A stretch of DNA of 64,000 nucleotides, from assembly GCA_016191845.1 (NCBI GenBank), contig JACPVF010000015.1, forward strand, positions 186,001-250,000. The letters are read 5' to 3'. This stretch comes from Chloroflexota bacterium. Its GTDB lineage: Bacteria > Chloroflexota > Anaerolineae > Anaerolineales > Villigracilaceae. Of this stretch, positions 32,587 through 63,546 are shown piece after piece. The notes beneath the pieces are model-generated. The model did not search any database and was not told where the DNA came from. It saw only the letters and a program-made list of their open reading frames with translations. The stretch's first letter is position 1, and every line of letters starts with the position of its first letter. The translations under genes were made by a program, and so were the position numbers.

Positions 32587-32901
32587 GTGGAAGATATGCA
32601 ATACAACTTCATCACCAACACTGACCGTCAAATCCAACTTCTACAACTGGTTGCCCAGCGCCAGCGAATAGCTGTTTTCGATATCGTTGAGGAGTTTGCG
32701 GTTAGCGAGTCGACTGCTCGCCGTGACTTGGAAACCCTGGCCAGGCAGGGCAGGGTTCAACGTGTGCATGGTGGGGCGATTGCCATCCAGACCACCCAAC
32801 CCGAATTGCCCCTGTTGGAACGCGGCAATGAACGGGATGCTGAGAAGCGTCGTATCGGACAGGCGGCAGCAGCACTGGTGCGTGAAGGCGAGACAATTTT
32901 T
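32587..32901 (+). repeat. 315-bp direct repeat, copy 2
   Basis: 5' part of the intact DeoR gene, matching copy 1 at 28292-28606 in the same orientation. After this point the two sequences diverge completely, marking the junction. Confidence 0.88.
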
Positions 32902-33369
32902 CTGGGTTCCGGTACGACCGCCCTGGAAGTGGCCCGCGCACTGCGAGAAACCAAGGCACTGACAGTCATCACCAACTCCCTGCCAGTTTTGAATGTGCTG
33001 GCCGGTTGGGAGTGCGCCGTTGTCTGCCTGGGCGGGATTCTGCGTTCGAGCGAGCTCTCGTTCATTGGGCATATTACCGAGCAGGCTTTGGCCGAGGTCC
33101 GTGTCGATAAGGTGATCATCGGGATTCGAGCCATTAGCTTGGAAGATGGCTTGACCAACGAATACCTGCCCGAGACACTCACCGACCGGGCTATCCTGCG
33201 TGCCGGACGGGAAGTCATTGTGGTGGCTGATCATAGCAAGTTTGGACGAGTGGCTTCTGCTCGCGTTGCACCCATCGAAGATGTGCAAACCATCGTGACA
33301 GATGATGATATCCCGTCTCAGGTTCGTTCTGCTCTTGAGACCCGCGGTTTGCGGGTAATTGCAGCCTAA
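32587..33369 (+). CDS. DeoR-family sugar-metabolism repressor
   Basis: 260 residues, full length. N-terminal DeoR HTH (RIAVFDIVEEFAVSESTARR, VQRVHGGA), then the ribose-phosphate-isomerase-like sensor: IFLGSGTTALEVARAL, LTVITNSLPVLNVL, CLGGILR, IIGIRAISLEDGLTN, VIVVADHSKFGRVAS. Family members respond to sugar phosphates, and tagatose-phosphates are common effectors for AgaR/LacR relatives. Start is taken as GTG 32587; ATG 32596 is also possible. It is followed 2 bases later by the amidohydrolase gene, so it heads the sugar cluster. Confidence 0.9.
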   Translation: MEDMQYNFITNTDRQIQLLQLVAQRQRIAVFDIVEEFAVSESTARRDLETLARQGRVQRVHGGAIAIQTTQPELPLLERGNERDAEKRRIGQAAAALVREGETIFLGSGTTALEVARALRETKALTVITNSLPVLNVLAGWECAVVCLGGILRSSELSFIGHITEQALAEVRVDKVIIGIRAISLEDGLTNEYLPETLTDRAILRAGREVIVVADHSKFGRVASARVAPIEDVQTIVTDDDIPSQVRSALETRGLRVIAA

Positions 33370-33371
33370 CT

Positions 33372-34409: not shown

Positions 34410-34503
34410 GGTGTAACTCTCAAACCAGGATCTTAAGAAAACATTTCCATGCAGGTCTGGTCTTTGTTTTTATCTTTCAAAACTGTTAGAAAGGAGTTTC
34501 TTG

Positions 34504-35562
34504 ATGGAATTAGGTCATCACACTCACGCTGAAATTTTATCTCAATTCGCAGCTTGGGCTGAAGCGCTGGAGGTGGTCACTCAGATGCGCCCAGCTTTGG
34601 ACGCCATTTTCCATGCGGATTATGACCAAGTTGTGTTCACTGGCTGTGGTTCAACTTATTACCTTTCGCTTTCTGCTGCGGCGCTTTTTCAGGAGTTGAC
34701 CGGCAAACTGGCGCGGGCTGTTTCTGGCGGAGAATTACTGTTGAATCCCGCAATAACCGTAACGCGAGATAGTATCCCTACCGGGGAAAAACTTTCGCGC
34801 CGCAAGACATTGCTGGTGGCAGTTTCGCGCTCAGGCTCGACCACTGAAACCGTCCGCGCAGTGGAACGGTTCAAACAGCAGCAGCGCGGTCCAGTGATTG
34901 CCATCACCAATTATGGCGATCAGCCGCTGGCCGGCATGGCAGATGTAGCCCTAGTTATTGAAAAGGGCCAGGAGGAGAGTATTGCCCAAACGCGCTCATT
35001 TGCTTCGATGTTTGTTGCAGCGACGGCTCTTGCTGCGGTGGCAGCCGGGGATGGCGGATTACTCGATGCGATGGACAAACTTCCGGCGGCGGGCGAAAGA
35101 CTCTTGGCAGCATATGAGCCGCTAGCGTGCGATTTTGGCGGGAATTTAAGCCTTGATCGTTTCTATTTTCTGGGCAGCGGTATCAGGTACGGCCTGGCCT
35201 GTGAAATCAGCCTGAAGATGAAAGAGATGACCCTGACCCACAGTGAACCCTTCCACTTCATGGAGTTTCGTCATGGTCCAATGAGTATGGTTACGAAACA
35301 GGCAGTGATTGTAGGATTTTTATCGGAGAAAAATTCCAATCGTGAACAAGCTGTGCTCAACGAGATGCGGAGATTGGGCGGAAAGGTTCTGTCGCTGGCA
35401 GAGACGGAGGCGCGGGTGGTTTTTGAATCGCAGATCCCGGAAAGTGTCCGTGCGGTGCTCTATCTCCCGGTTTTGCAGATGATGGCCTTTTACCGCTCGT
35501 TGGCGAAAGGTTTGAATCCCGACCGCCCTAAGAATCTGGCGGCGGTGGTTGTTCTCGAATAA
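34504..35562 (+). CDS. agaS: SIS-domain sugar-phosphate isomerase/deaminase, AgaS-like
   Basis: 352 residues with two SIS domains, like AgaS and the isomerase half of GlmS. Motifs: VFTGCGSTYYLSLSAAALFQ, then TLLVAVSRSGSTTETVRAV, VALVIEKGQEESIAQTRSF, and in the second half FYFLGSGIRYGLACEISLKM and SEPFHFMEFRHGPMSM. AgaS deaminates and isomerises galactosamine-6-phosphate to tagatose-6-phosphate, which fits the tagatose-type genes in this cluster; FrlB-like or other amino-sugar substrates remain possible. The ATG at 34504 has AAAGGAG upstream. Confidence 0.8.
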   Translation: MELGHHTHAEILSQFAAWAEALEVVTQMRPALDAIFHADYDQVVFTGCGSTYYLSLSAAALFQELTGKLARAVSGGELLLNPAITVTRDSIPTGEKLSRRKTLLVAVSRSGSTTETVRAVERFKQQQRGPVIAITNYGDQPLAGMADVALVIEKGQEESIAQTRSFASMFVAATALAAVAAGDGGLLDAMDKLPAAGERLLAAYEPLACDFGGNLSLDRFYFLGSGIRYGLACEISLKMKEMTLTHSEPFHFMEFRHGPMSMVTKQAVIVGFLSEKNSNREQAVLNEMRRLGGKVLSLAETEARVVFESQIPESVRAVLYLPVLQMMAFYRSLAKGLNPDRPKNLAAVVVLE

Positions 35563-35653
35563 GCATTTTGCAGGAGGTGCAGTTTTCAAGAGATACCGCT
35601 CGAGACTTCCAAGTTTGTCTGTTTGCTTAAAATAAATTTAAAAGGAGAAAAAA

Positions 35654-37006
35654 ATGAAACACCTGTATCGTTTGTTTGCCATGATGATTGTGGCCTCGGT
35701 TGTTCTTGCGGCTTGTGGTACAGCTCCGGTTGCGACTCAGGCTCCATCTGTCACTGAGCCGTCTGCCGCTCCTGTAGCAACGGAACCGGCCGCCACTGCC
35801 GCCCCCACTACAGAAAAGATTGAGTTGGTCTACTGGTCAATGTGGAATGAAAAAGAGAACCAGGCTATGGCAATTCAGGAAGCCATTAAGGCGTTTGAAT
35901 CTGCCAATCCCAATATCACCATCAAAGTGACCTGGAATGGCAGGCAGAATCAGACCCTGTTACGCAACGCGATTGCTTCTGGCACGAAGGTCGACTTTAT
36001 GGATCAGGATGCCGACCAGGTGGCGGGTGGGATGGTTGCTGCTGGGCAGGGATACCCGCTCAATGATCTCATCACCCCCGATTTTGAAGACATATTTGTT
36101 CCCAGTGTGTTACACATGTTCGATGTGGATGGTAAAACCTACCTCGTCCCATATGTTTATAACACCGCCCAGTTCTTCTACTCGAAGGATGCTTTTGATA
36201 AGGCTGGCGTGACTCCTCCACAGACTTGGGATGAGCTTCTGGCTGCTTGCGACAAACTCAATGCGGTCAATATCAATCCGATTGCTGTTGAAAGTGACAT
36301 TCAAGGTTACAACGCAGTTTATTTTACCTATCTGCTTGCCCGCTTGAAGGGGCCAGGTTGGATGCGCCAAGCCGCCTATGACAAGACCGGTGAAATGTGG
36401 AAAGACCCGGCCGTTTTGCAGGCTGCCCAGATGTCGATGGACCTATGGACCAAGGGCTGCATTCCGGACGTTTCCAAGGGTTACAAGTGGCCACAAGCCC
36501 AGGAAACCGTTGCTGCTGGCGAAACCGCTATGGAGTTGGTCGGCTCATGGCTGCCCACTGAACTTGTGAAAGCCACCGGCCCCGATTTCAAATGGGGTTC
36601 CTTCAACTTCCCCGAAGTATCGGGCGGCGCTGGCAAGTCTACCGACCTGATGGCGTTTATGTTGTCATACATGATTCTAAAGGATGCCCCGCACCCGAAG
36701 GAATCCTTCGAGTTCATTAAGTTCATGCTCTCCGAAGAGAATCAAAAAGGTATGGTCACTGCTGGTTTGGTGGGCGTGCCGCGCAAGGGCGTTGCTTGGC
36801 CCGCCAATATCGCTGACTCGCAAACTGCTGCTGAAACCGCCACCGTCGTTTTTGGTGAAGGCGACGGCCTGCAGGGTGCAGACGCTGAGTTGTGGGTAAA
36901 AGTGATTCGCGACCCGTTCAATGATATGTTCGTTGGCAAATTAACCCCTGAACAATTTGTCGAAAAATTAGTTGCGGATACTGCAACTTACTGGAAGGGC
37001 AAGTAG
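35654..37006 (+). CDS. Sugar ABC transporter substrate-binding lipoprotein (cluster 1)
   Basis: Family 1 extracellular solute-binding protein of 450 residues. Lipobox VVLAACGTAP then a Pro/Thr/Ala-rich linker, then VYWSMWNEKENQAMAIQEAI. Internal TYLVPYVYNTAQFFYSKDAF and GETAMELVGSWLP match carbohydrate binders of the MalE/UgpB type. AAAGGAG precedes the start. Followed after a stem-loop by the two permease genes, with no ATPase gene, as is usual when a shared MsmK/UgpC-type ATPase is encoded elsewhere. Confidence 0.9.
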   Translation: MKHLYRLFAMMIVASVVLAACGTAPVATQAPSVTEPSAAPVATEPAATAAPTTEKIELVYWSMWNEKENQAMAIQEAIKAFESANPNITIKVTWNGRQNQTLLRNAIASGTKVDFMDQDADQVAGGMVAAGQGYPLNDLITPDFEDIFVPSVLHMFDVDGKTYLVPYVYNTAQFFYSKDAFDKAGVTPPQTWDELLAACDKLNAVNINPIAVESDIQGYNAVYFTYLLARLKGPGWMRQAAYDKTGEMWKDPAVLQAAQMSMDLWTKGCIPDVSKGYKWPQAQETVAAGETAMELVGSWLPTELVKATGPDFKWGSFNFPEVSGGAGKSTDLMAFMLSYMILKDAPHPKESFEFIKFMLSEENQKGMVTAGLVGVPRKGVAWPANIADSQTAAETATVVFGEGDGLQGADAELWVKVIRDPFNDMFVGKLTPEQFVEKLVADTATYWKGK

Positions 37007-37021
37007 CTAGTTTCAAGACAG

Positions 37022-37045
37022 GGGGGTGGGGTTTTCCTCACCCCC
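37022..37045 (+). terminator. GC-rich stem-loop between binding-protein and permease genes
   Basis: Stem of about ten pairs (GGGGGTG with CACCCCC, extended inward) around a TTTT loop, followed by TCTCAGTTTTCT. Probably a partial terminator or 3' stabiliser that keeps binding-protein expression above permease expression, as known for mal-type operons. Confidence 0.6.
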
Positions 37046-37097
37046 TCTCAGTTTTCTATCATGGCTCTAGTTGTTTTTATTAGTCAGGAGGACGCCA

Positions 37098-37991
37098 ATG
37101 AAACCTCGTGCAAGTATGATCATTTTATTCCTGATGCCTGCCGGATTATTCTACTTGGCTTTGTTTTTGCTGCCAGCAGCCTGGGCCTTTTACTACAGCG
37201 CTTTTGATTGGTCAGGATTTTCAGACGAGATGACCTTTGTTGGACTAGGTAACTTTGTAAAGTTGCTGACCACAGATCCTATTTTCTGGAGCAGTTTTGG
37301 CAACACGCTGAAGATCATTTTTGTCGGTGGTTTTTTTACATTTACCTTGGCTTTCCTGCTTGCCATGCTGCTCAATTCAGGGATCAAAGGAAAAAAGGTT
37401 TTCCGCGCTTTGATTTTTCTGCCCAATGTTATTGCGACAATTGCTTTGACTACCATGTGGTCCTTTGCTATCTTCAGCCCGCGTAGCGGAGTCCTCCCCA
37501 ATTTTCTGAAGCTAATCGGCTGGACCTCAGCTTCTAAGTTCTTGTGGATGTCGGCCGACCATGTTTTCTGGTCGATGCTGATCGCGATTGTCTGGATCAA
37601 TGTGGGCTATTTTGTGGTCTTAATCCTGGCTGGGATGGATCGCATTCCTATCGAGTTTTATGAGGCGGCCCAACTCGACGGTGCGAGCATGATCCAGCAA
37701 TTCTTTCGCATCACCCTGCCCCTGATGTGGGATGTGTTGACGGTCTCGGTGGTTTTATGGTCGATCAGCGCCATCAAGGTCTTTGAATTCCCATTCGCCT
37801 ATATGGGCGCCGGGGAAGATCCCAATCTATATACCATCGGCGTTTACCTATATATCATGGGATTTGGAAAACGCCAGCCGATCTATCAACTTGGTTATGC
37901 CACTGCAATTGGTGTGTTGATGCTTCTTCTCATTATTGTGGTGAGTATTTTTGTGCGTCGTCTGATGCAGCGTGAATCTTTACAGTATTAG
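37098..37991 (+). CDS. Sugar ABC transporter permease, MalF/UgpA type (cluster 1)
   Basis: 297 residues with six helices. The inner-membrane binding-protein-dependent signature is visible in EAAQLDGASMIQQFFRITLP, the EAA loop that contacts the ATPase. The ATG at 37098 has AGGAGG 6 bases upstream. Partner of the downstream MalG-like permease. Confidence 0.92.
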   Translation: MKPRASMIILFLMPAGLFYLALFLLPAAWAFYYSAFDWSGFSDEMTFVGLGNFVKLLTTDPIFWSSFGNTLKIIFVGGFFTFTLAFLLAMLLNSGIKGKKVFRALIFLPNVIATIALTTMWSFAIFSPRSGVLPNFLKLIGWTSASKFLWMSADHVFWSMLIAIVWINVGYFVVLILAGMDRIPIEFYEAAQLDGASMIQQFFRITLPLMWDVLTVSVVLWSISAIKVFEFPFAYMGAGEDPNLYTIGVYLYIMGFGKRQPIYQLGYATAIGVLMLLLIIVVSIFVRRLMQRESLQY

Positions 37992-38001
37992 GAGAGCAAC
38001 C

Positions 38002-38901
38002 ATGGCTGCTATATCTACTAACCCAAATCTGCCGGATCAGGCCAGCTTTTCCACAAGAGCCCGCAAAGCACGCATTAAAAAGTTGCTGACACAGATTCCT
38101 GCCTATCTTATTTTAAGCCTATGGTCCTTTTTTACGATTTTTGTCATTGGTTGGGTAATTATCTCCTCCTTTAAAACCAATGCGGAAATATTTCGGACCG
38201 TTTTCGACCTTCCCAAAGTCTGGCAATTTAGCAACTACATCAATGCTTGGTCGCAGGGAAATTTTGCCCTGTACTTACGCAACAGTGTGTTCCTGACCAG
38301 CGCGTCAGTGGCTGGGCTACTATTGATTTCTGCGCCTGCCGCTTATGTGTTGAGCCGCTTCAAATTTATTGGTCGCAATTTCCTGACCATCACCTTTATT
38401 GCCGGAATGGGCATTCCCTATTCATTGGTGCTCATTCCCTTGTATGTGATTATGTCACGTCTTGGATTGATCAATAATCTCCCGGGGCTGATCCTGATCT
38501 ACATCAGCCTGTCCATCCCTTTTACAGTCTATATCCTGACTGGATTCTTTGTCACTTTGCCAAAGGAACTGGAAGATGCAGCAGTAATTGATGGCTGCAA
38601 CGAATTTCAAACTTTCTGGCATGTCATGTTACCCCTAGCTTCGCCTGGCCTGCTGACAGCAGGAATCTTCAATGCTATCGGCATGTGGAATGAATATCAA
38701 TTAGTCCTGGTCTTTATGGGCAATGAAGAGGGTCGGACCTTGGCCTTGGGGCTGTACTCACTTCAAAATGCAATGCAGTATACCGGCGATTGGGTTGGCT
38801 TGTTTGCCGGTGTTTGCATCATCATGGTTCCTACCATTGTTCTGTACGTAATCCTCTCCGAGAAAATGATTGCTGGGATTACTATGGGCGCGGTCAAGTA
38901 G
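38002..38901 (+). CDS. Sugar ABC transporter permease, MalG/UgpE type (cluster 1)
   Basis: 299 residues, six helices. The EAA loop reads LEDAAVIDGCNEFQTFWHVM with LPLASPGLLTAG following. The ATG at 38002 has AGGAG upstream and is preferred to one ten codons earlier inside the previous gene. It completes the importer together with the binding protein and MalF-like permease. Confidence 0.92.
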   Translation: MAAISTNPNLPDQASFSTRARKARIKKLLTQIPAYLILSLWSFFTIFVIGWVIISSFKTNAEIFRTVFDLPKVWQFSNYINAWSQGNFALYLRNSVFLTSASVAGLLLISAPAAYVLSRFKFIGRNFLTITFIAGMGIPYSLVLIPLYVIMSRLGLINNLPGLILIYISLSIPFTVYILTGFFVTLPKELEDAAVIDGCNEFQTFWHVMLPLASPGLLTAGIFNAIGMWNEYQLVLVFMGNEEGRTLALGLYSLQNAMQYTGDWVGLFAGVCIIMVPTIVLYVILSEKMIAGITMGAVK

Positions 38902-38925
38902 CCCCGATCCAAGCGGAGACTCATT

Positions 38926-40938
38926 TTGTCCACCTTGCGTCTTGCCACCCTCACCATGCCCGCTGCTGACCTTGGCATGGAAAATCCCTTACCACCACTG
39001 CGGAACGAGCAGGAATTGCATGTCGCCCAAAGTGTTGACCCTGCTGTCGCTGACGACATGCGCTGTAATATGAGCTACGGTCACTTGCACAGCCTGCTCC
39101 CTTATACCATGCAGGATAATTACACTCGCACGCGCCGCCTGCGCGACTTCCGCGTTGCCGTGCTGGAAAATGATATCCTGCGTGCCACCTTCCTGCTTGA
39201 ATTCGGTGGCCGTTTGTGGTCACTTTTGCACAAACCTTCCGATCGTGAACTACTCTCCGTAAACCCTGTTTTCCAGCCTGCTAACCTGGCTCTGCGTAAT
39301 GCATGGTTTAGCGGTGGCGTAGAATGGAACATCGGCACCATTGGTCATACACCCTTTACTTGTGCACCTCTCTTTGCCGCCCGCGTGGAAGGACAGGATG
39401 GGATGCCAGTCTTGCGCATGTACGAGTGGGAACGTATTCGTCAGGTCACATATCAAATTGACACATGGCTCCCCGATGGCTCTCCTGTCCTTTTTGTGCG
39501 GGTCGGCATTCGTAACCCTAATTCGAGAGAGGTCCCGATGTATTGGTGGTCGAACATCGCCGTGCCAGAAACACCTACCACGCGCGTGCTTGCCCCCGCT
39601 AACTCGGCTTACCGTTACACCTATGACGGTCTCAAGGTCATCCCTGTCCCTGAGTATGAGGGCGTGGATAATACCTATGCTGCCAAAATCAACCGCGCCG
39701 CCGACTTCTTTTTCCATATTCCCGACGACACACGTCCCTGGATCACCGCTTTGGATGAACATGGCAAGGGCTTGGTGCAAGTTTCCACGAGCCGTTTGAG
39801 GGGACGCAAGTTGTTTGTCTGGGGTATGGGGCGTGGCGGCAGAAAGTGGCAGGAGTTTCTCTCTGTTCCAGGACAGGCCTACATCGAGATCCAGGCAGGT
39901 CTGGCGCGCACACAACTGGAACACATCCCTATGCCAGCCTATGCCGAATGGGGCTGGCTGGAGGCTTATGGTCTCTTAGAAACGGACGCAGAAAAAATTC
40001 ACGGTTTGGATTGGAAGCAGGCTTCTTCCATGGTAAAAGAGGCAGTTGAAAAACTAATCCCACATCAAAAACTGGAAGCTGAATACGCTAATTCTGCATT
40101 CTTTGCAGATCGTCAGCCAGTGGAAATTCTCCAGCGTGGCTCTGGTTGGGGTGCATTGGAACGCCTGCGTAGGGAGGCAACTGGCGAGCCGCCCATGTGT
40201 TCGGCTGGATTGATCTTCGACGACCAGTCGCTTGGTGATGAGCAAATTCTCTGGATTTCTTTGTTGAGAAAAGGCAGTTTTCCCAAGCCTGCTGCAGGGT
40301 TGCTTCCCACGAGTTATATGGTGCAGGAAGAGTGGAAGGTGCTACTCGAATCATCCGCTATGCGTGACAATAATTGGCTGACCAGTTTGCACTTGGGCGT
40401 GATGCGTTTTTATAAGGAGGATTATGACGGCGCGCGCCAGGCTTGGGAATATTCCCTTCGGCTGAACAGGACACCCTGGGCTTTGCGTAACCTGGCGGTT
40501 TTGGATTGCAAGCAAAAGCGGCCCGAAGCGGCGCTTGAAAAATACATTGCTGCCTGTCGATTGAAAACTGGTTTGTTGCCGCTGGTGATCGAATGTGGAA
40601 AGTTCCTGGTCGAGGCTGGGTATCATCAACAGTGGTTGGCACTTTTATCCGAGCTTCCTATAGAGATCCACAATAAGGGACGCATCCGTTTGCTGGAAGC
40701 CCAGGCATTGTTGGCAGTAGGGGAGTTGAATCGGGTGAAGGAAATTATCGACAGTTTGCCAGTAATTGAAGACATTCGGGAAGGAGAGCGGGCACTCTCG
40801 CAGTTGTGGCTGCATTACCACGCCCAGTTCTTGAGCAGGCTCGAGAATCGTCCCTGCGATGACGACCTGCTGACGAGGGTGCGGAAGCAGTTTCCACTTC
40901 CAGCGGAACTGGACTTTCGTATGTCGGAAGAGTATTAG
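38926..40938 (+). CDS. DUF5107 protein with C-terminal TPR-like region
   Basis: 670 residues. The first two thirds match DUF5107: RVAVLENDILRATFLLEFGG, RLWSLLHKPSDRELLSVNP, WFSGGVEWNIGTIGHTPF, VPMYWWSNIAVPET and WGMGRGGRKWQEFLS. The fold resembles aldose-epimerase/carbohydrate-binding beta-sandwiches, so a role in handling sugars or oligosaccharides is likely. The last third is helical and TPR-like (GVMRFYKEDYDGARQAWEYS). No signal peptide. The TTG at 38926 has GGAG upstream; an ATG at 38956 is the alternative. Placed with the ABC importer, it may act on the imported sugar. Confidence 0.8.
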   Translation: MSTLRLATLTMPAADLGMENPLPPLRNEQELHVAQSVDPAVADDMRCNMSYGHLHSLLPYTMQDNYTRTRRLRDFRVAVLENDILRATFLLEFGGRLWSLLHKPSDRELLSVNPVFQPANLALRNAWFSGGVEWNIGTIGHTPFTCAPLFAARVEGQDGMPVLRMYEWERIRQVTYQIDTWLPDGSPVLFVRVGIRNPNSREVPMYWWSNIAVPETPTTRVLAPANSAYRYTYDGLKVIPVPEYEGVDNTYAAKINRAADFFFHIPDDTRPWITALDEHGKGLVQVSTSRLRGRKLFVWGMGRGGRKWQEFLSVPGQAYIEIQAGLARTQLEHIPMPAYAEWGWLEAYGLLETDAEKIHGLDWKQASSMVKEAVEKLIPHQKLEAEYANSAFFADRQPVEILQRGSGWGALERLRREATGEPPMCSAGLIFDDQSLGDEQILWISLLRKGSFPKPAAGLLPTSYMVQEEWKVLLESSAMRDNNWLTSLHLGVMRFYKEDYDGARQAWEYSLRLNRTPWALRNLAVLDCKQKRPEAALEKYIAACRLKTGLLPLVIECGKFLVEAGYHQQWLALLSELPIEIHNKGRIRLLEAQALLAVGELNRVKEIIDSLPVIEDIREGERALSQLWLHYHAQFLSRLENRPCDDDLLTRVRKQFPLPAELDFRMSEEY

Positions 40939-40967
40939 GGTAATGACGGATATCTGGAACCTGAAAC

Positions 40968-41297
40968 ATGAAATCTATTTCAATCGGTAAACTACGCGGA
41001 CTTCAGCAAATTGTATCCGAACGCAGAACCTTCACTGAGCTTGCGCTTGACCATCGTCAAAATCTTCGCAAAGTAAATCCCGCCTTCGTGGATGACGCCG
41101 AACTCTCACACTTCAAACTAGGAGCGATCTCTGCGCTTGCTCGCTGTGCAATGGAAAGCGCAAAGCGTCAAACCCTTTTATGTGCTGTTGCCACGGAAAG
41201 GCTCACCTGCCTCACTTCCCTCTGCTATGCCCTTGCTAGACCCTTTACTGACTTTTACCAAGCCGAAGCGCCTTTTGACTTGTATCAAACCTATTGA
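40968..41297 (+). pseudogene. Tagatose-1,6-bisphosphate aldolase LacD with internal deletion
   Basis: A 109-codon frame that keeps both ends of LacD but lacks about 200 central residues. Its first half (SIGKLRGLQQ, TFTELALDHRQNLRKVNPAF, VDDAELSHFK) and its second half (ERLTCLTSLCYALARPF, TDFYQAEAPFDLYQTY) align with the two ends of the intact LacD at 58039-58986. The deletion is in frame, and the Schiff-base lysine region is lost, so the product cannot be an active aldolase. Lies between the DUF5107 and PfkB genes, matching the intact lacD-pfkB order of the other cluster. Confidence 0.87.
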
Positions 41298-41314
41298 CTT
41301 TTAACTATTTGACT

Positions 41315-42235
41315 ATGAAACGATTCGACTTGCTGGTTGCTGGTGAAATCAACCCTGACCTAATTCTCTCTGGAAACATCATTCCTGAATTTGGACAGGT
41401 CGAAAAAATGGTTGAAAGTGCTTCGCTCACTATTGGCTCATCATCCGCCATTTTTGCCTGCGGAGCGGCAAGGCTGGGATTGAAGGTTGCATTCATTGGC
41501 GTATGCGGCGACGATGTTTTTGGTCACTTCATGCTCAATGAGATGTCCAAGCGCGGCGTGGATGTGAGCAATGTCATCGTCCGCGCGGATGGTCAGACGG
41601 GACTCAGCGTCATTCTCAACAATGGAGTTGACCGTGCAATTCTGACACATTCGGGCTTGATCGTTGAACTCCGAGCCTTGGACATAGCGGATGATTTGTT
41701 GCGCCAATCAAGACACTTGCATGTAGCGAGTTATTTCCTGCAAACCAAGCTCCAGCCCGATCTACCTGCCTTGTTCGGGCGCGCCCGCTCTTTCAGAGTA
41801 TCCACTTCGCTGGACACGAACTATGACCCATCCGAAAGATGGGCTGGTTTCGATGAATTACTTGCGGTTACGAATGTGTTGCTGCCAAATGAAGCGGAAG
41901 CGAAATCGCTTGCGGGTGCAGAAACTGCCGAGGAAGCGGCAAAAAACCTTGGTGCAAAGGTGGAGACTTTGGCGGTTAAGCTGGGAAAGGATGGGGCTTT
42001 GGGGGTATTGAGGAGTCGGAGAGTCCAAGTGCAAAGCATTCCAGCTAACGTCGTTGATACGGTTGGCGCAGGCGACTCGTTCGATGCAGGCTTTATTTAT
42101 GGATACTTAAATGGCTGGGAATTGGAGAAGTCTTTGCGGTTAGCATGCATATGCGGAGCATTATCCACACAACATGCGGGTGGCACGAATGGACAACCAA
42201 CCTTGGAGGAGGCCCTGAATTATGTATCTCGATGA
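41315..42235 (+). CDS. PfkB-family carbohydrate kinase (cluster 1)
   Basis: 306 residues, ribokinase fold. Signatures: [16 protein letters not shown] at the start, [20 protein letters not shown] (first PfkB region) and the anion-hole/catalytic [20 protein letters not shown]. Substrate is not fixed by sequence; with AgaS, LacD and GatZ neighbours, a sugar or sugar-phosphate of the galactosamine/tagatose route is likely. A close paralogue lies at 57087-58001 next to intact lacD. The ATG at 41315 is chosen; overlaps the downstream GatZ-like gene by 14 bases. Confidence 0.88.
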   Translation: MKRFDLLVAGEINPDLILSGNIIPEFGQVEKMVESASLTIGSSSAIFACGAARLGLKVAFIGVCGDDVFGHFMLNEMSKRGVDVSNVIVRADGQTGLSVILNNGVDRAILTHSGLIVELRALDIADDLLRQSRHLHVASYFLQTKLQPDLPALFGRARSFRVSTSLDTNYDPSERWAGFDELLAVTNVLLPNEAEAKSLAGAETAEEAAKNLGAKVETLAVKLGKDGALGVLRSRRVQVQSIPANVVDTVGAGDSFDAGFIYGYLNGWELEKSLRLACICGALSTQHAGGTNGQPTLEEALNYVSR

Positions 42236-43478
42236 AATTGTTGCAGCGCAAAAACGCGGGGAGGTGAAGGGGATTACATCTGTTTGTTCGGCGCATCCAG
42301 TTGTTATCGAACAAACCCTAAAGATGTTTGAGTATCCATTAATCGAAGCGACATGCAACCAGGTCAACCAGTTTGGCGGTTATACAGGCATGACGCCGAA
42401 GGATTTTGTAGCATACGTAAAAAGGATCGCCGAGAAGATAAACTTTCCATTCGAGAAAATCATCCTGGGCGGTGACCATCTTGGTCCGAATGTCTGGCAG
42501 AATGAACCTGCTGAGTCTGCCATGCAACAATCGGAGGAAATGATTCGCGAGTATGTAAAAGCGGGGTTTGCCAAGATTCATCTTGATTGCAGTATGCGTC
42601 TTATGGATGATCCACCCGGTGCCTTGGATGTTGAAGTGATCGCATCACGGGCGGCACGGCTGGCAAAGGTGGCTGAGCAATCATTTTCCTCTCTTCGTAG
42701 AAGGGGAGGTGATGGTATTCTGCGTTACATCATCGGCACAGAAGTACCCATCCCTGGCGGCGCGACGGAACACGAGGAAGGCGTCAGCGTGACAAAAGTG
42801 GAAGACGTGCTGCAGACTATCGAGATCACGCACCAGGCGTTTTTGAGGGAAGGATTGGAATCGGCATGGGAACGGGTACTTGGAGTTGTTGTCCAACCAG
42901 GCGTGGAATTTGGCGACGATTTCGTTTTGCCATATCAGCCGGCAAGGACCGTTAACCTTTCGAAATTTATCGAAGGCCAGGCGATGGTATATGAAGCGCA
43001 TTCCACCGATTATCAAACGTGTCATGCGTTAACGAACTTGGTCCGTGACCATTTTGCTATTCTAAAGGTGGGTCCCGGCCTCACGTTTGCTTTCCGGGAA
43101 GCGCTCTTTGCCCTGGCGATGATCGAGAATGAGATGATCGTGAGGGAGGAACGTTCCAATATCATGCAGGTTTTGGATCAGGTGATGTTGAAGCATCCCG
43201 AACATTGGATGAAGTATTATCACGGCAGCGAAGAGGAACAGGCATTCAAACGCAAATATAGCCTGAGCGACCGTGCCCGATATTATTGGGTCCAGCCTGA
43301 TGTACATGCGGCACTTCAATGTTTATTAAAAAATCTTGGCACAAGAACCTTGCCTTTTGCGTTACTTAGCCAATATATTGGAAAAACAAACCTCACAGCT
43401 GAACAGGCAATAAGGTGGAAAATAGATCAAACGCTGATGAATTATTTCCAGGCTTGTACAGGGGGAACATGCGAGTAA
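42222..43478 (+). CDS. GatZ/KbaZ-like protein (tagatose-bisphosphate aldolase class II accessory subunit or tagatose-6-phosphate 4-epimerase)
   Basis: 418 residues, TIM-barrel of the GatZ/KbaZ/AgaZ family (COG4573). Motifs: GITSVCSAHPVVIEQTLKMF, ATCNQVNQFGGYTGM, IILGGDHLGPNVW and KIHLDCSMRLMDDP. In enterobacteria the protein is a non-catalytic partner of the class II aldolase GatY/KbaY, which is absent here. From memory, an Agrobacterium homologue was shown to be a D-tagatose-6-phosphate 4-epimerase yielding fructose-6-phosphate; that activity would fit a stand-alone gene. Last gene of cluster 1. Confidence 0.85.
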   Translation: MYLDEIVAAQKRGEVKGITSVCSAHPVVIEQTLKMFEYPLIEATCNQVNQFGGYTGMTPKDFVAYVKRIAEKINFPFEKIILGGDHLGPNVWQNEPAESAMQQSEEMIREYVKAGFAKIHLDCSMRLMDDPPGALDVEVIASRAARLAKVAEQSFSSLRRRGGDGILRYIIGTEVPIPGGATEHEEGVSVTKVEDVLQTIEITHQAFLREGLESAWERVLGVVVQPGVEFGDDFVLPYQPARTVNLSKFIEGQAMVYEAHSTDYQTCHALTNLVRDHFAILKVGPGLTFAFREALFALAMIENEMIVREERSNIMQVLDQVMLKHPEHWMKYYHGSEEEQAFKRKYSLSDRARYYWVQPDVHAALQCLLKNLGTRTLPFALLSQYIGKTNLTAEQAIRWKIDQTLMNYFQACTGGTCE

Positions 43479-56897: not shown

Positions 56898-57090
56898 TTA
56901 TAACTTTGCGATCTTTATTTCTTGGCGGATTTTATCAAAATCCTGGCGCGAAAAGAGGCCTCTGCCAAAAGTCAACGCATGGGCTGTTCCTGCTGCCGCA
57001 GCCACACAGGTGGCACGATACACCCACGTGCAAAGAGTCGGCCTGCAAGGTTCTGTCAATGGCCGGGTTGGGGGTCATGCACAGGATCAC
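56898..57090 (-). pseudogene. Decayed LacC/FruK-like (PfkB) kinase with internal deletion
   Basis: The start is clear: GTG at 57090 overlaps the preceding kinase stop (GTGA) and reads [20 protein letters not shown], the 1-phosphofructokinase/tagatose-6-phosphate-kinase N-terminus. After about 25 codons the frame shifts directly to the family C-terminus, VAAAAGTAHALTFGRGLFSR followed by QDFDKIRQEIKIAKL and a stop at 56898. About 240 central residues, including the active site, are gone. It would have been the tagatose-6-phosphate kinase of cluster 2. Confidence 0.82.
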
Positions 57091-58001
57091 AGGAAGGTGA
57101 GCGCCTCTTCGAGCGTGGGCTGCGCGGCGGTCCCACCCGACCTGCGCGTCGAGAGCGCCCCGCACACCGCGCCCAGCCGCAACGACTTCTGCAATTCCCA
57201 TCCGTTCAAGTATCCATAGAGAAACCCAGCATCGAACGAGTCGCCCGCCCCAACCGTATCCATTACTTTTACAGGAATACTTTCCACCTGGACTTTTTGA
57301 CTCTTCGAGATTCCCAACGCCCCAGCTTTTCCCAACTTGATCGCCAGCGCCTCCACCTTTGGCCCAAGCCTGACCGCCGCTTCGTCGACATCTTCCGCGC
57401 CTGTGAGCGATTTTGCTTCGGTCTCATTGGGCAGGAACACATCCGTGGCCGCAAGCAATTTGTCAAAACCTGACCATTTCTCGTTGGGATCATAATTCGT
57501 GTCGAGCGAGGTGGTCAGGCCCAGAGAGTGAGCGCGCTCGAAGAGACGGGGCAGGTCTGCCTGCAATTTCGTTTGCAGGAAATAGGACGCGACATGCAAA
57601 TGCCGCGCCTGCGACAGCAAATCGTCAGTGATGTCGGCAGCCTGCAGGTCGGCGACCAGGCCGAGGTGCGTCAGAATGGCGCGGTCCACGCCGCGGTTGA
57701 GGATCACGCTCAGGCCCGTTGATCCGCCCTCGATGACGAGCACGTTGCTCATATCCACATGCTGCTTTTGCATTTCATCCAGCATGAAGCGGCCAAAGAC
57801 GTCGTCGCCGCATTTGCCGATGAACGCGACCTTGAGTCCCAGCCGCGCCGCACCGCACGCAAAGATGACCGACGAAGAACCGATCGTCAGCGTCGCCGCA
57901 TCGATCAGTTTTTCGACCTGACCGAAAGCGGGCGCGACATCACCCGTGAGGATGAGGTCGGGGTTGATCTCGCCAGCAACAAGGATATCGAAAGGTTTCA
58001 T
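57087..58001 (-). CDS. PfkB-family carbohydrate kinase (cluster 2)
   Basis: 304 residues, close paralogue of the kinase at 41315-42235 along its whole length (shared [70 protein letters not shown]). Substrate not fixed by sequence; context suggests a sugar of the galactosamine/tagatose route. Start at 58001 corresponds to the paralogue start. Downstream of lacD with a stem-loop between, and overlapping the decayed LacC-like gene by GTGA. Confidence 0.88.
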
Positions 58002-58038: not shown

Positions 58039-58986
58039 TCAGTATGTTTTGTACCAGTCGAACGGCGCGTCGGCAGTGTAGAAATCGCTGACGGGTTTCG
58101 CCAGCGCAGTGCACAACGCGTTGAGGCGGATGAGACGTTCCTTCGCGGTGGTGCGCAGGAATTCGGCGCGCGCCTCGATGGGCATGGTGACGGCTTCCTG
58201 CCAGACGGCGCGGCCCACGGCGATGCCGCTTGCGCCCGCCTGACAGGCCGCGATGATCTGGCGCTGATAGGTCTCGAACGAGACGGCCGCCGAAAGCAAG
58301 ATCCATGGCGTGACGGAGGCGGCGCTGACCTCGGCGCAGGCGGCAAAGAGACGCTCGAGGTCGGTGTCGGCTGTGTCGAGCGGAAGCTCGGCCTTGAGCA
58401 GATCCACGCCTGGGATGGGCGTCAGACGGCGGGCGGTCTCGACCACCACGTAGCGTTTTTCGTCGCTGGTGAGCTTGGCATCGGTCAGTGAATAAGAGAG
58501 CGGTTCGAGCATCAGGCCGAGGTCGTGGCGGATGCATTCAGCAGCAATATTTTTGGTGAAGGCTTCGGCCTCGGCGGCGGTGGGAGAGTCGGGGTGATAG
58601 TAGACCAGCAGCTTGATCATGCTGGCGCCCATGCGCTTGGCCTTTTCCACGCTCCAGCCAGGGATAATCTGCGCGCGGCGCGCGGTTGCGTCGCCCGTGT
58701 AGCCCGTGGACTCGACCGCCACGACGAAGGCGGTGTTGCCAGGGATGGCGCCCGCCGCAATAGCCTGCGCGGCAGAGACTTCGGGGTCGAGCAGCACGGC
58801 GGTGGACTCAGCCGCCAGGGCAGCGGTGACGTCCACTTTGAAGCGGCTCAGTTCGGCATCGTCGACGAAGGCAGGGTTGGCCTTGCGCAGGTTCTGACGG
58901 TGGTCGAGCGCGAGACAGGTAAAGGTTCCGCGCGGGGAGGTGCATTGTTGCAGTCCGCGCAGTTTGCCGATGGATAAGGGTTTCAT
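58039..58986 (-). CDS. lacD: Tagatose-1,6-bisphosphate aldolase LacD
   Basis: Class I aldolase splitting tagatose-1,6-bisphosphate to dihydroxyacetone phosphate and glyceraldehyde-3-phosphate. 315 residues. Visible: GTFTCLALDHRQNLRKANPA, VLLDPEVSAAQAIAAGAI, AKRMGASMIKLLVYYHPDSP (Schiff-base lysine region), LEPLSYSL, LLKAELPLDT and TPWILLSAAVSFETYQRQI. It is the intact counterpart of the deleted copy at 40968-41297. Lies between the GH114-type and PfkB genes. Confidence 0.9.
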   Translation of the reverse strand: MKPLSIGKLRGLQQCTSPRGTFTCLALDHRQNLRKANPAFVDDAELSRFKVDVTAALAAESTAVLLDPEVSAAQAIAAGAIPGNTAFVVAVESTGYTGDATARRAQIIPGWSVEKAKRMGASMIKLLVYYHPDSPTAAEAEAFTKNIAAECIRHDLGLMLEPLSYSLTDAKLTSDEKRYVVVETARRLTPIPGVDLLKAELPLDTADTDLERLFAACAEVSAASVTPWILLSAAVSFETYQRQIIAACQAGASGIAVGRAVWQEAVTMPIEARAEFLRTTAKERLIRLNALCTALAKPVSDFYTADAPFDWYKTY

Positions 58987-59086: not shown

Positions 59087-59953
59087 TTACGGACAGGTTT
59101 GCAGCCAGGCGTCCAGGCCGCGGTTCTTAAGGATGGTGCTGAAGCGCAGGCCTTTGGACTGTTCGCAGAATTTGGCAAAGTCACCTGGCAGGTCGGTGTA
59201 CTCGGCGGCGAAGACAGGCTTGCCCGCCTGGATGTACGGCAGCATCGACTCGGCGTCTCCATAATAGAAGTAATCTTCGGTGATGGCGAAGTCGTAGATA
59301 TTCACGAGGTCGGCCACCTGATCCGAAGCGTTCTTCTGGCCGATGGCGAGTCCGCGTTTGTGGGCTTCGTCAGCCAGCCAGAGCGCGTACTTCAACTGGT
59401 CTTCGTAGGTCAGCGGGAAGCCCGTGTTGTTGGTGTGGATCTCCATGTTATCGGGTTCCACGGCGTCGAAGCCTTTGGCCTTGCACAGGTCGAGGCGGGC
59501 CAGCATGATGGGCGCCAGCAGGTCGATGCGGCGGATGTCGAGCCACTTCTCGCCAGGCCAGCCGTCGTAATCCTTGCCGAGCACTTCGGCTGGGAACTGA
59601 TCCTTGTCGGGGCGCCAATCCTCGAAGGAGCCGACGCTCATGTAGCAGATGACCTTGCGGCCCTGGGCGTGGAGTTCGTCGATGATGGCCTGGTCCACGT
59701 ACAGGTCAATGTCGTAGACGTCGGCCTGGACGGTGGTGTCGATGTCGAGGTTGCCGATCTGCCACTGCCAGGTGAGTCCAACCGTGGGTTTCCACCAGGT
59801 TGTTGCAGGTTGCAGGTTGGAAGGTTGTAAGGTTGAAGGCATAAGAGTTGAGTCTTTCGTCGAAACGGAGTCAGGCAGCGGGGCCGATAGAGCGGGTGCG
59901 CATCCTAGCAGGAAAGAGGAAAGAAGAAAGAGGGTTGTGAGCCTAGACCACAT
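59087..59953 (-). CDS. Exported endo-alpha-1,4-polygalactosaminidase-like GH114 lipoprotein
   Basis: 288 residues. Lipobox [10 protein letters not shown] near residue 18, then a Ser/Thr/Gln-rich linker, then a GH114/TM1410-type TIM-barrel: [74 protein letters not shown] and [13 protein letters not shown]114 enzymes cleave alpha-1,4-linked galactosamine polymers. It should sit on the outer face of the membrane and feed the ABC importer of the cluster. Overlaps the GH4 gene by 11 bases, so the two are coupled. Confidence 0.85.
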
Positions 59954-61274
59954 GGTGTTTGAACTGCGGAAGGTAATCCTTGTGCTGGGCGAACAGTTCG
60001 TTGGTCATCTGCCTGATCTCGGCCAGCGACAGCACGGCGGAGGTCAGCGGATCGTGGCAGATGGCGCGATAGATGGCGGTGGGGTCACCTGTCAGCGAGC
60101 CCTGAATGGCAAGCTCCTCGATGCCGCTCGAAAGCTGGGTGAGCAGAGCGCACTCGGCAGGCAGCGCACCAACGTGGATGGGATGGAAGCCCGCGCGGTC
60201 GACGACCACGGGCACTTCGACACAGGCGTCCTCGGGCAGGTTGGTGATGAGATGCGTGTTGCGCACGTTGCCGTTGAACTTGAACATCTCGCCGCCGCGC
60301 AGGGCGTTGATGATGTAGGCGGCGTATTCGTGCTCGCGCTGCAAGTCCTGCTCGGTCAGCGGCTGGGCCAGGCGTTCCTTGACCTGATCCTTCCAGGTGG
60401 CTTCATTGTGTTGATATTCCTTGAGGATGTAGGCATACTCGCCAGGATTCCAGTTGGTGCCGTGCGTGCAGTATTTCTCGATCAGGTCGGGGCGCTTGCG
60501 GAACCAGGGGTTGTACTCGGAGTTGTGGCCGCTGCTCTCGGTGACGTATTTGCCGATGGCCAGATACATCTCGTTGCGGACGGGTTCCGCGTTGTAGATC
60601 TCGGCCCGCTCGCTGACGGCTTTGTGGATCAGGGGGTAGGCGTCCTCGCCGTTCCACTTGTATTCAAGATACCAGGCCTGATGGTTGATGCCCGCGCACA
60701 GGTAATCGATGTCCTCGTATTTTGCGCCGATCCATTCGGCCAGCATCATGGCTGTGCCCTGCACCGAATGGCACAGGCCCGTGGTGGTGATGAAGGACTG
60801 CTTCTGAATGGCCGAGACCAGCATGGCCATCGGGTTGGTGTAGTTCAACAGCACGGCGTTCGGACAATACTTTTCCATGTCGCGCACGATGTCCATCATG
60901 GGGTTGATGGTGCGCAGGAAGCGGAAGATGCCGCTCGGCCCGCGCGTGTCACCCACGTTGATGTCCACGCCGTATTTCTTGGGGATCTCGATATCGTGAC
61001 GCCAGACCTCGGTGGAGCCTGCCAGGATGGTGGTCAGGACCACGTCTGCGCCTTGGAGTGCCTCCGCGCGATCGAGCGTCGCCTCGACCTTGGCGGGACG
61101 TTTGCCCGCCTCGATCAATTTCTCCACGCCGCGCTTGGCCCATTCGAGGCGCTCGGGGTGGATGTCCATCAAAGAGATGGTGGCATCTTCCAGCAGGGGG
61201 AAGGTCAGGATGTCGCGCACCAGTTCGCCCGTGAATCCCAGGCTGCCTGCGCCGATGAAGGCGATTTTGGTCAT
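59943..61274 (-). CDS. Family 4 glycoside hydrolase (MelA/LplD-like alpha-galactosidase)
   Basis: 443 residues, NAD- and metal-dependent GH4 enzyme. Rossmann start [52 protein letters not shown], the metal-binding cysteine and histidine in [13 protein letters not shown], and [18 protein letters not shown]. The pattern is nearer to MelA alpha-galactosidase than to phospho-glycosidases, but galacturonidase or amino-sugar activity cannot be excluded. Cytoplasmic, so it would trim imported oligosaccharides. AAGGAG precedes the ATG. Confidence 0.88.
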
Positions 61275-61744: not shown

Positions 61745-62593
61745 TTATCGTTTCACGCCGCTCAGCGCGATGCCTTCGATGAATTGCTTCTGGGCGATGA
61801 AGAAGATGATCAGCAGCGGCAGGATGGACAGGAACGCGCCCGCCATCAACACGGTGAATTTGCCGCCGAGCTGTAATTGCTGTTGGAAGAAAGCCAGGCC
61901 GACCGTCAGCGTGGTTTGCTGCATGTCGGTGGGCAGGTACACCAGCGGATGCAGCAGGTCGTTCCAGGCATCCTTGAAGACGAAGATCGCCAGCGCCGCC
62001 ACGGCAGGCTTCGAGAGCGGCAGGTAGATGCGCCAGAAAATGTCGAAGAGCGAGGCGCCGTCCATGCGGGCGGCATCCACCAGGTCGCGCGGGATGGTGA
62101 GGAAATATTGTCGCAGCAGGAAGGTGCCGAAGGCTCCGCCCCAGAAGGCGGGCAGGATCAAGGGCCACTGTGTGCCGATCAGATGCATGTACTTGAAGAT
62201 GATGAAGTTCGGGATGAGCGAGACCTGCGGGGGAATCATCATGGTGGCCAGCAGCAGCGCGAACAGCAGGTTGCGTCCCTTGAACTTGACCACGGCGAAC
62301 ACGAAGGCCGCCATGGCGCAGGTCAGGACCTGGCCGATGACGGTCAGGATCGAGATCTTGAAGCTGTTGAACACCAGCGCGAGAAAGGCATTGTTGGGCA
62401 AAACCCGAAACAGGTCGGCATAGTTCTGGAACACGATCGGGTCGGGGATGAGGTTGCGCGAATATTGCTGGGCAGGCTCGCGGAAGGAAACCGAGATCAT
62501 CCACACGAACGGGAGCAGCATGGTCAGCGCGCCGATGCCCAGCACGAGATAAGCCAGCGTATCGAGGACGGTCTTTTGCAGAGACTTGGTCAT
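61745..62593 (-). CDS. Sugar ABC transporter permease, MalG/UgpE type (cluster 2)
   Basis: 282 residues, six helices; starts with the typical LAYLVLGIGALTMLLPFVWM and PDPIVFQNYADLF segments; EAA loop RDLVDAARMDGASLFDIFWR. Partner of the permease encoded 9 bases upstream. The 470-base repeat-rich gap follows before the GH4 gene. Confidence 0.92.
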   Translation of the reverse strand: MTKSLQKTVLDTLAYLVLGIGALTMLLPFVWMISVSFREPAQQYSRNLIPDPIVFQNYADLFRVLPNNAFLALVFNSFKISILTVIGQVLTCAMAAFVFAVVKFKGRNLLFALLLATMMIPPQVSLIPNFIIFKYMHLIGTQWPLILPAFWGGAFGTFLLRQYFLTIPRDLVDAARMDGASLFDIFWRIYLPLSKPAVAALAIFVFKDAWNDLLHPLVYLPTDMQQTTLTVGLAFFQQQLQLGGKFTVLMAGAFLSILPLLIIFFIAQKQFIEGIALSGVKR

Positions 62594-62602
62594 GGCAACA
62601 CC

Positions 62603-63490
62603 TTATTCGTAGACCACATAACGGCGTTCCCACCAGAACATCACGCCCATGAAGGCCGCCACCAGCAGCGCCAGTTGAATGGCCTGCGCGCTGGCATCGC
62701 CCATGCGGAAGAAGTGGAAGGCGTTGCGGTAGATCGAGAAGACCGCCACGGGCACCGAACTGTCACCGCCGCTGCGACGGGTGAGCATGTAAATGTAGTC
62801 GTAAGCCTGGAAGGCATTGATGGCGGCGATCAGGGTCTGGAAGAAAATGCTGGGCGTCACCAGCGGGATGGTCACGCGCAGGAATTGCTGGAAGCCGCTC
62901 GCGCCGTCGAGCTCGGCCGCCTCGTAATAATCGCGCGGGATGGCGGTCAGCCCCGCCAGGAAGATGATCATGCCCTCGCCGATCGCGCCCCACACGTTGA
63001 CGATCACCACCGACAGCATGGCGTTGTTCGTGCACAGCCAGCAGATGGGCGACAGGCCAACTGACTCGAGCATGAAGTTCAGGATGCCCGTATCCCTGCC
63101 GTAGATCATGTTCCAGACCAGGGCCGTGGCCACCGCCGACGTGACCGTGGGCAGGAAGTAGATCGTGCGGAAGATGCCCACGCCGCGGATCTTGCGATTG
63201 AGCAGCACCGCCAGCAACAGGGAAATGATGACCACGCCAGGCACATACATGGCCGAGAACTTCAACGTGTTCGAGAACGCCTCCATATAGGATTCATTCT
63301 GGAACAGTTGAACGTAATTGGAAAACCCTGCCCAGGTGGGCGCGCCGATCAGGTCCCAATCGAAGAAGCTTAACGTCAACGTGGCAAGCAGAGACCCGAT
63401 GGTGCCGAAGGCCAGTCCGATGATGGTCGGCACCAGCATCAGCCATAGCCAGAGTTTTTCACGTCCAAGCGGTTTGAGGCCGTATTCCAT
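62603..63490 (-). CDS. Sugar ABC transporter permease, MalF/UgpA type (cluster 2)
   Basis: 295 residues, six helices; EAA loop RDYYEAAELDGASGFQQFLR. The ATG at 63490 is preferred to the one two codons upstream because AAGGA then lies 6 bases before it. Separated from the binding-protein gene by a strong stem-loop. Confidence 0.92.
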   Translation of the reverse strand: MEYGLKPLGREKLWLWLMLVPTIIGLAFGTIGSLLATLTLSFFDWDLIGAPTWAGFSNYVQLFQNESYMEAFSNTLKFSAMYVPGVVIISLLLAVLLNRKIRGVGIFRTIYFLPTVTSAVATALVWNMIYGRDTGILNFMLESVGLSPICWLCTNNAMLSVVIVNVWGAIGEGMIIFLAGLTAIPRDYYEAAELDGASGFQQFLRVTIPLVTPSIFFQTLIAAINAFQAYDYIYMLTRRSGGDSSVPVAVFSIYRNAFHFFRMGDASAQAIQLALLVAAFMGVMFWWERRYVVYE

Positions 63491-63504
63491 GACCATTCCT
63501 TGCC

Positions 63505-63538
63505 AGCCCTGACAGGTTCAGATGAACCTGTCAGGGCT
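63505..63538 (-). promoter_or_regulatory. Perfect 16-bp stem-loop between binding-protein and permease genes
   Basis: AGCCCTGACAGGTTCA and its exact complement around a 2-base loop. On the transcribed (minus) strand no T-run follows, so it is more likely a 3' stabiliser or partial attenuator that sets the binding protein to permease ratio, parallel to the stem-loop at 37022-37045. Confidence 0.75.
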
Positions 63539-63546
63539 TTTGTGGA

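Follow-up and report, generated by a model that had tools for sequence, protein, structure and literature searches.

How might an organism use tagatose 6-phosphate (T6P) when its lacC-like and lacD genes have decayed near an intact gatZ? This question is raised by a 64,000-nucleotide stretch from a Chloroflexota bacterium of the order Anaerolineales (assembly GCA_016191845.1, contig JACPVF010000015.1, positions 186,001 to 250,000; hereafter the window). It carries two gene clusters: cluster 1, in which gatZ follows a lacD remnant and a PfkB kinase gene, and cluster 2, in which a lacC remnant stands beside a kinase gene and an intact lacD. An earlier sequence-only reading, pointing to an Agrobacterium homologue, had proposed that GatZ is a T6P 4-epimerase which, together with AgaS, would deliver fructose 6-phosphate and make LacC and LacD dispensable; a T6P 4-epimerase route of Agrobacterium tumefaciens was reportedly described by Wichelecki in 2015. 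Our analysis finds such a bypass likely for the LacC step but not proven for LacD. Contig C14, which holds the window, belongs to a genome of 4.63 Mb in 18 contigs that is 99.17% complete.

GatZ as a candidate tagatose-6-phosphate 4-epimerase

The GatZ/KbaZ homologue is intact, as had been read from the sequence: it matches PF08013 over positions 1-419 of 420 with 563 bits (cut-off 26.7) and without a stop, and so belongs to this family (E. coli family membership was tested as a control of the search). Against the agaZ_gatZ equivalog TIGR02810 it scores 554.6 bits, just under the cut-off of 568.8. Compared with the relative G239, gatZ and the kinase gene of cluster 1 have pairwise dN/dS values of 0.11 and 0.10, at dS values of 1.3 to 1.5 that are near saturation. 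Residues C22, E42, D85, H86, E174, H260 and K282 match C20, E44, D87, H88, E171, H257 and K279 of E. coli GatZ, which are metal ligands or active-site residues of that enzyme (PMC11907403). Among them are the metal ligands H86, H260 and E174 and the catalytic D85 of the GatZ model in that study, as expected of a T6P 4-epimerase. All seven are invariant in 14 aligned GatZ proteins; a second set of 30 shows no variation at six of them, and at least 90% of its members have E174.

An AlphaFold2 model of GatZ (pLDDT 93.2, pTM 0.91) had 2FIQ and 3TXV as its best structural matches. VIA-align ranked two GatZ-family structures first (Z 55 and 52), followed by UxaE/tagatose 4-epimerases (Z 23.6 to 24.9) and, just after these and with some ranks tied, by class II aldolases (up to Z 23.2). 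No kinase fold appeared among the matches listed by Foldseek or VIA-align, an absence that did not come from a dedicated test. As to partners, gatZ encodes the only PF08013 protein of the genome, and we found no match to the class II aldolase family PF01116 (GatY/KbaY) at E <= 0.001 anywhere in it, a search that was positive in 11 of 14 known genomes used as controls. At this threshold, the reported lack of a GatY/KbaY partner in the window extends to the whole genome, and the class II catalytic subunit that would define a GatYZ or KbaYZ complex was not detected.

In E. coli, deletion of gatZ abolished tagatose formation, which was restored by gatZ or kbaZ together with the phosphatase gene hxpA and not by fbaA, kbaY or gatY (PMC11907403). 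The C4-epimerases GatZ and KbaZ described there share with our protein the family PF08013, the active-site residues and the proposed reaction. The same source cites epimerases of Agrobacterium, Sinorhizobium and Caldilinea for GatZ activity, so that the earlier reference to an Agrobacterium homologue was right; the Caldilinea aerophila enzyme, a fructose 6-phosphate 4-epimerase (Dai 2020), was characterised for tagatose making. Altogether, the residues, the predicted fold, the lack of a detected class II partner and the E. coli work support the view that this GatZ is probably a T6P 4-epimerase. Since GatZ epimerase activity has already been reported, the enzyme itself is not new; it is a known enzyme in a variant pathway.

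Some features of the gatZ family deserve separate mention. The gatZ gene of the window contains, at 42688-42709, a short near-palindromic element that lies in frame in a variable loop and has a single match in the window. In relatives, different insertions that keep the frame and read like PLPLGEGLGVR or SPRGRG occur in gatZ or in the kinase gene (L131 7958-8020, L140 and the L104 region), as if palindromic elements entered such loops. A divergent GatZ, which scores about 96-117 bits against PF08013, is encoded at five loci (L177, L183, L184, L185 and L186), there too next to lacD. Finally, a protein of about 480 residues with weak matches to both PF08013 and PF01116 occurs in many relatives (L020-L034, L036-L038); these proteins are perhaps UxaE-like epimerases.

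gatZ, lacC and lacD across the order

The LacC-like kinase gene of cluster 2 is indeed gutted, as the sequence-only reading held. Its first ~23 codons and a C-terminal piece are left, in different frames, and about 734 bp are missing relative to G001, the only congener among 61 genomes searched, which carries an intact lacC at the same place. The cluster of this congener consists of genes for a regulator, an amidohydrolase, a SIS protein, an ATP-binding cassette (ABC) transporter and glycoside hydrolases of families 4 and 114 (GH4, GH114), followed by lacD, kinase and lacC, and is without gatZ. Its LacC reaches 146 of the 409.6 bits of the lacC equivalog TIGR01231 and passes the cut-off of the broader 1-PFK subfamily (282 vs 216 bits).

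We examined 112 loci chosen for gatZ or lacD, lacC genes without lacD falling outside the sample; six LacC loci themselves supplied the LacC queries. The gatZ loci derive from 80 listed places in the order (three short second gatZ fragments, in G190, G321 and G334, are not included), six of which, under 1,100 bases, were not fetched, leaving 74. Fetched stretches extend as far as 7.5 kb past gatZ (somewhat more in one set) and often end at contig ends, and an absence at a locus means absence within the fetched stretch. No lacC-like gene was found around any of the 74 gatZ loci; six of the 112 loci hold lacC and none holds both. Among 81 loci with an intact lacD, 51 have gatZ or its divergent form, six have lacC and none has both (P 0.0018, uncorrected for relatedness). 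The lacD remnant of the window counts as LacD in the 74-locus tally, as one of 35 LacD-kinase-gatZ loci, and not in the intact-lacD tally; weak matches of 20 to 28 bits, from the ~480-residue family, are not counted. The gene that follows lacD and kinase is gatZ in 31 loci, a divergent gatZ in one and lacC in three. Because no lacC was found near the 74 gatZ genes and lacC follows lacD and kinase in three gatZ-free relatives, GatZ most likely replaces the LacC step. The proposal that LacC is dispensable is further supported by the pair of congeners, lacC being broken here and intact in the gatZ-free G001.

The lacD copy in cluster 1 has lost its centre, again in agreement with the earlier reading. 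The remnant of 109 codons keeps, in one frame, residues 1-58 and about 266-313 of the 313-residue LacD, and about 207 central codons are missing, including the lysine of the motif DLLKAE (K198 in the intact copy), which we take to be the Schiff-base lysine; a few middle codons (ESAKR) may survive. Compared with the intact lacD of G274, the N-terminal part is 84% identical (dN 0.08, dS 1.66) and the C-terminal part 60% (dN 0.33, dS saturated), and we read the deletion as fairly recent. Against PRK12858 the remnant scores 25.9 bits; the LacD encoded in cluster 2 scores 228 bits (cut-off 184), and against the lacD equivalog TIGR01232 it stays at 89.6 bits, below the cut-off of 432. This second lacD looks constrained (pairwise dN/dS 0.07 against G001). 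Neither it nor the intact PfkB kinase genes beside both remnants had been mentioned before.

In a survey of 400 genomes of the order, GatZ was present in 78 and LacD in 83 (thresholds were E <= 1e-20 for LacD and E <= 1e-30 for class II aldolase; nine genomes whose only GatZ is the divergent form, scoring about 96 to 117 bits, were counted separately). LacD occurs in 50 of the 78 gatZ genomes vs 33 of the 322 others (odds ratio 15.6, p 6e-22, uncorrected for relatedness), and lacD lies within 3.3 kb of gatZ at 46 of the 80 places (45 genomes), 43 times upstream on the same strand. Since the two genes co-occur and adjoin, GatZ is no general substitute for LacD, and we rejected that idea. LacD is absent from 28 of the 78 gatZ genomes, 15 of which are also without class II aldolase; three of these 15 are under 70% complete (G188, G241 and G255), and G025 is counted, but breaks or truncations in its SIS, binding-protein and kinase genes led us to drop it as a clean example. 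No association was seen between GatZ and class II aldolase (50/78 vs 186/322 genomes, p 0.37). Nor does LacD appear to stand in for a missing class II aldolase: it is present in 37 of the 50 gatZ genomes with that enzyme and in 13 of the 28 without.

On a gatZ tree of 73 rows, there are at least 16 changes between presence and absence of lacD at the locus. In the clade nearest to the window gatZ, G239, G244 and G274 retain lacD and G194 and G315 are without it, with about 66 bases between the GH4 and kinase matches in G194. A contig of the cultured relative Thermanaerothrix daxensis (L234) has a regulator gene together with lacD, kinase and gatZ. Among the listed matches in aldolase-free gatZ loci, only L109 has a possible lacD fragment (35 residues, E 1e-5), and no remnant was seen between GH4 and kinase in L131 or L135. 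That LacD is dispensable is not shown for this genome, as the constrained lacD of cluster 2 is intact and gatZ and lacD co-occur across the order; elsewhere, 28 of 78 gatZ genomes do without LacD. Two side observations concern the same place in the operon. In L113, L114, L123 and L141 a class II GatY-like aldolase gene takes the usual place of lacD beside kinase and gatZ, so that unrelated aldolases would seem to be exchanged there. In addition, SIS-kinase-gatZ rows occur in Ignavibacteriales and Neomarinimicrobiota records (L213 and L272), with none of the searched aldolases within their 5-kb flanks.

The PfkB kinase gene shows a complementary pattern with the permease of the phosphotransferase system (PTS): it is missing from all 11 gatZ loci that contain a PTS permease gene and present in 57 of the 63 others (Fisher 3e-9). 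In the PTS-type loci there are also SIS-type genes and, in most, NagA; a lacC-like gene was not seen in any of the 11 fetched stretches. The exclusion is consistent with phosphorylation of the imported sugar by the kinase, as the PTS would do in the other operons, and is suggestive only, since few pairs are independent. The combination of PTS, SIS and NagA genes without a lacC-like gene fits an exit through GatZ.

Proposed pathway and alternatives

We therefore consider it probable, with real room for doubt, that a stand-alone T6P 4-epimerase replaces the LacC step in an amino-sugar pathway. The ABC transporter would import a galactosamine-type sugar, the PfkB kinase (or the PTS) would phosphorylate it, and the SIS enzyme would deaminate and isomerise the product to T6P. 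GatZ, a metal-dependent enzyme of class-II-aldolase fold, would then invert C4 of T6P by retro-aldol/aldol chemistry to give fructose 6-phosphate, taking over from the LacC kinase step. From gene content, we infer galactosamine as the substrate, given the GH114 gene (presumably of the polygalactosaminidase family), the kinds of DeoR/AgaR regulator and SIS protein, and the NagA genes of the PTS operons. Cluster 2 would be the native version, its lacC now broken, and cluster 1 would have brought gatZ before that loss, its own lacD decaying while the second copy remained. With the gatZ of cluster 1 serving both clusters, the lacC of cluster 2 could be lost; the two clusters jointly retain the commonest gene set of the order, namely SIS, kinase, LacD and GatZ. 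LacD may be kept for tagatose bisphosphate arising from a side activity of a promiscuous phosphofructokinase. More tentatively, and with somewhat less than even confidence, we extend this to the Anaerolineales at large: a galactosamine-type route without tagatose bisphosphate might run through kinase or PTS, SIS enzyme and GatZ, with GatZ displacing LacC in the same place and lacD then becoming optional and being lost on many occasions; wherever GatY is missing, 'non-catalytic aldolase subunit' would be a misnomer for this family.

Several observations weigh against a bypass by GatZ. Foldseek places class II aldolases ahead of epimerases for the GatZ model, the tagatose 4-epimerases starting at rank 35, and plasmid-borne gatZ without hxpA failed to restore tagatose formation in E. 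coli (PMC11907403). The co-occurrence of GatZ and LacD, far above chance, is not what a pure bypass predicts. In the 61-genome set, the exclusion of lacC and gatZ could, taken alone, be chance: just three genomes, G001, G017 and G030, all without gatZ, have a LacC match with 51% identity or more. The exclusion is also not universal: outside the order, among the best 80 of 588 confirmed matches to the GatZ alignment A1 in named records, eight gatZ loci have a lacC-like gene within 5 kb. Seven of these eight carry a class II aldolase, and their genera are, we presume, Enterobacterales. The kinase/PTS exclusion reduces to three well-supported independent pairs on the tree, which is not significant. 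Lastly, the cluster 1 SIS enzyme is no clear AgaS, with 100.7 of 529 bits for agaS_fam and 148 of 580 for GlmD, and the name AgaS used in the sequence-only reading was loose.

T6P could also still be phosphorylated, and the search for an intact lacC suggested earlier gave a divided answer: the cluster 2 copy is broken, while contig C18 encodes an intact kinase of the LacC/1-PFK subfamily (TIGR03168, 237 bits), one of seven PfkB-family matches in a genome that also has four PF00365 phosphofructokinases. T6P might thus pass through tagatose bisphosphate, made by a promiscuous phosphofructokinase or the C18 kinase and cleaved by LacD (one of three PF01791 proteins, the others being class I fructose-bisphosphate aldolase and one read as DeoC from its sequence), the lost copies being redundant and GatZ a side or balancing enzyme. 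The constrained cluster 2 lacD and the tight linkage of lacD to gatZ agree with such a route, but the C18 kinase shares only 34% identity with the LacC of G017 and is encoded within an EIIC-GAT PTS operon with a FucA/AraD-like aldolase, 15 of 78 gatZ genomes have neither aldolase, and neither of the two PfkB families searched (the kinase and LacC; other kinase families were not searched) was found in the 11 PTS-type gatZ loci. We regard this route as unlikely, though worth keeping in mind. The C18 row itself (L279 5641-9547) comprises the EIIC-GAT PTS permease, the kinase, the aldolase and a PTS IIA/HPr-like gene, which suggests a galactitol-type pathway.

The same linkage of lacD upstream of gatZ would be expected if GatZ were a non-catalytic stabiliser of a tagatose-bisphosphate aldolase, here class I LacD instead of GatY, as would the class II gatY beside gatZ in four of 74 loci and the name of the NCBI model TIGR02810. 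However, a shared metabolite accounts better than a shared interface for linkage to two unrelated aldolase families, 18 of the 74 gatZ loci have a kinase and, within the fetched stretch, no aldolase, and the 15 genomes with neither aldolase, the lack of class II association, the conserved catalytic residues and the E. coli genetics pointing to epimerisation by GatZ/KbaZ (PMC11907403) all make a purely structural role improbable. That GatZ might itself be the T6P kinase, a like-for-like replacement of LacC in keeping with old family names (AgaZ), is a proposal repeated in the review PMC12118421; the titles of 2FIQ and 3TXV call them putative or probable T6P kinase, and gatZ does occupy the place of lacC beside lacD. 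With a predicted fold of class II aldolases and C4 epimerases, with E. coli genetics pointing to epimerisation (PMC11907403), with gatZ genomes that have neither LacD nor class II aldolase and with lacC-like genes beside gatZ in the eight named loci above, we find this very hard to maintain. Errors of assembly at both deletions seem just as remote: the genome is in 18 contigs, but both junctions lie inside one 455-kb contig, the clusters are not near-identical (their kinases are 73% identical), each remnant keeps both of its ends, and G194 too is without lacD between GH4 and kinase.

A stand-alone GatZ replacing LacC would differ from known systems in its setting. Compared with E. coli and Agrobacterium, the operon around gatZ is here of an amino-sugar type and encodes a SIS enzyme and class I LacD, and no class II aldolase was found in the genome. 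The E. coli Aga/Kba and the LacC/LacD pathways share with this operon a SIS deaminase/isomerase, a T6P intermediate and a DeoR-type regulator, and where operons of the order are of PTS type, the likeness includes NagA and the PTS (PMC12118421); here LacD replaces KbaY, gatZ replaces lacC, and the exit is probably fructose 6-phosphate. In the available parts of the literature on tagatose or galactosamine use and on GatZ, we found no published description of this operon. What is new is an operon in which steps can be exchanged (gatZ for lacC, PTS for kinase), apparently seen here in mid-switch. If this holds, a widespread family annotated as a non-catalytic aldolase subunit joins amino-sugar catabolism to glycolysis, and predicted pathways of many Chloroflexota that seem incomplete, without LacC or aldolase, become complete. 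The window genome (G000) and G001 would form a natural before-and-after pair for the replacement of a kinase step by an epimerase. The operons would also offer many candidate fructose/tagatose 6-phosphate epimerases, which are wanted for tagatose production; Caldilinea, we assume, belongs to the same phylum as the window organism.

Cluster layout and neighbouring genes

Cluster 1 (32587-43478, + strand) runs from the DeoR regulator through amidohydrolase, SIS, ABC transporter and DUF5107 genes to the lacD remnant, the PfkB kinase gene and gatZ. Cluster 2 (- strand) extends from past the window end down to 56900, in the order DeoR, amidohydrolase, extra binding protein, SIS, ABC transporter, GH4, GH114, lacD, PfkB kinase and lacC remnant; its first four genes lie beyond position 64000 (stretch L278).

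Features of the two clusters within the window
Feature	Position	Strand	Basis or remark
Cluster 1 DeoR-family regulator, AgaR-like	32587..33369	+	PF00455/PF08220; NF040755 183 of 260 bits, under the AgaR cut-off
Cluster 1 amidohydrolase, PF04909	33372..34409	+	Adjoins the SIS gene in several relatives
Cluster 1 SIS-domain sugar-phosphate deaminase/isomerase, AgaS/GlmD-like	34501..35562	+	PF01380; PDB relatives
Cluster 1 sugar ABC transporter (binding protein and two permeases)	35654..38901	+	Named by sequence reading; homologues in relatives
Cluster 1 DUF5107/TPR protein	38926..40938	+	PF17128, 116 bits
Cluster 1 lacD remnant	40968..41297	+	In-frame ends, centre gone
Cluster 1 PfkB kinase, intact, IolC/ribokinase-like, proposed sugar 6-kinase	41315..42235 (open frame from 41294)	+	PF00294, 186 bits
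gatZ, intact, proposed T6P 4-epimerase	42222..43478	+	PF08013, residues, predicted fold
Cluster 2 lacC (1-PFK subfamily kinase) remnant	56900..57090	-	Internal deletion and frame break
Cluster 2 PfkB kinase, intact	57087..58001	-	Paralogue of 41315-42235, 73% identical
Cluster 2 lacD, intact, class I tagatose-bisphosphate aldolase family	58039..58986	-	PRK12858
Cluster 2 GH114 glycoside hydrolase	59087..59953	-	PF03537, 268 bits
Cluster 2 GH4 glycoside hydrolase	59943..61274	-	PF02056/PF11975; PRK15076 alpha-galactosidase 511 bits, cut-off 486
Cluster 2 ABC transporter (two permeases and C-terminal part of binding protein)	61745..63999	-	

The cluster 2 kinase is 78% identical to its counterpart in G001, and three of its neighbours are 92-96% identical to theirs, which suggests gene conversion or a relaxation of constraint that reaches up to the broken lacC. 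About 11 kb past the window end, a piece of repeated DNA (L278 12086-13000) is open in two frames.

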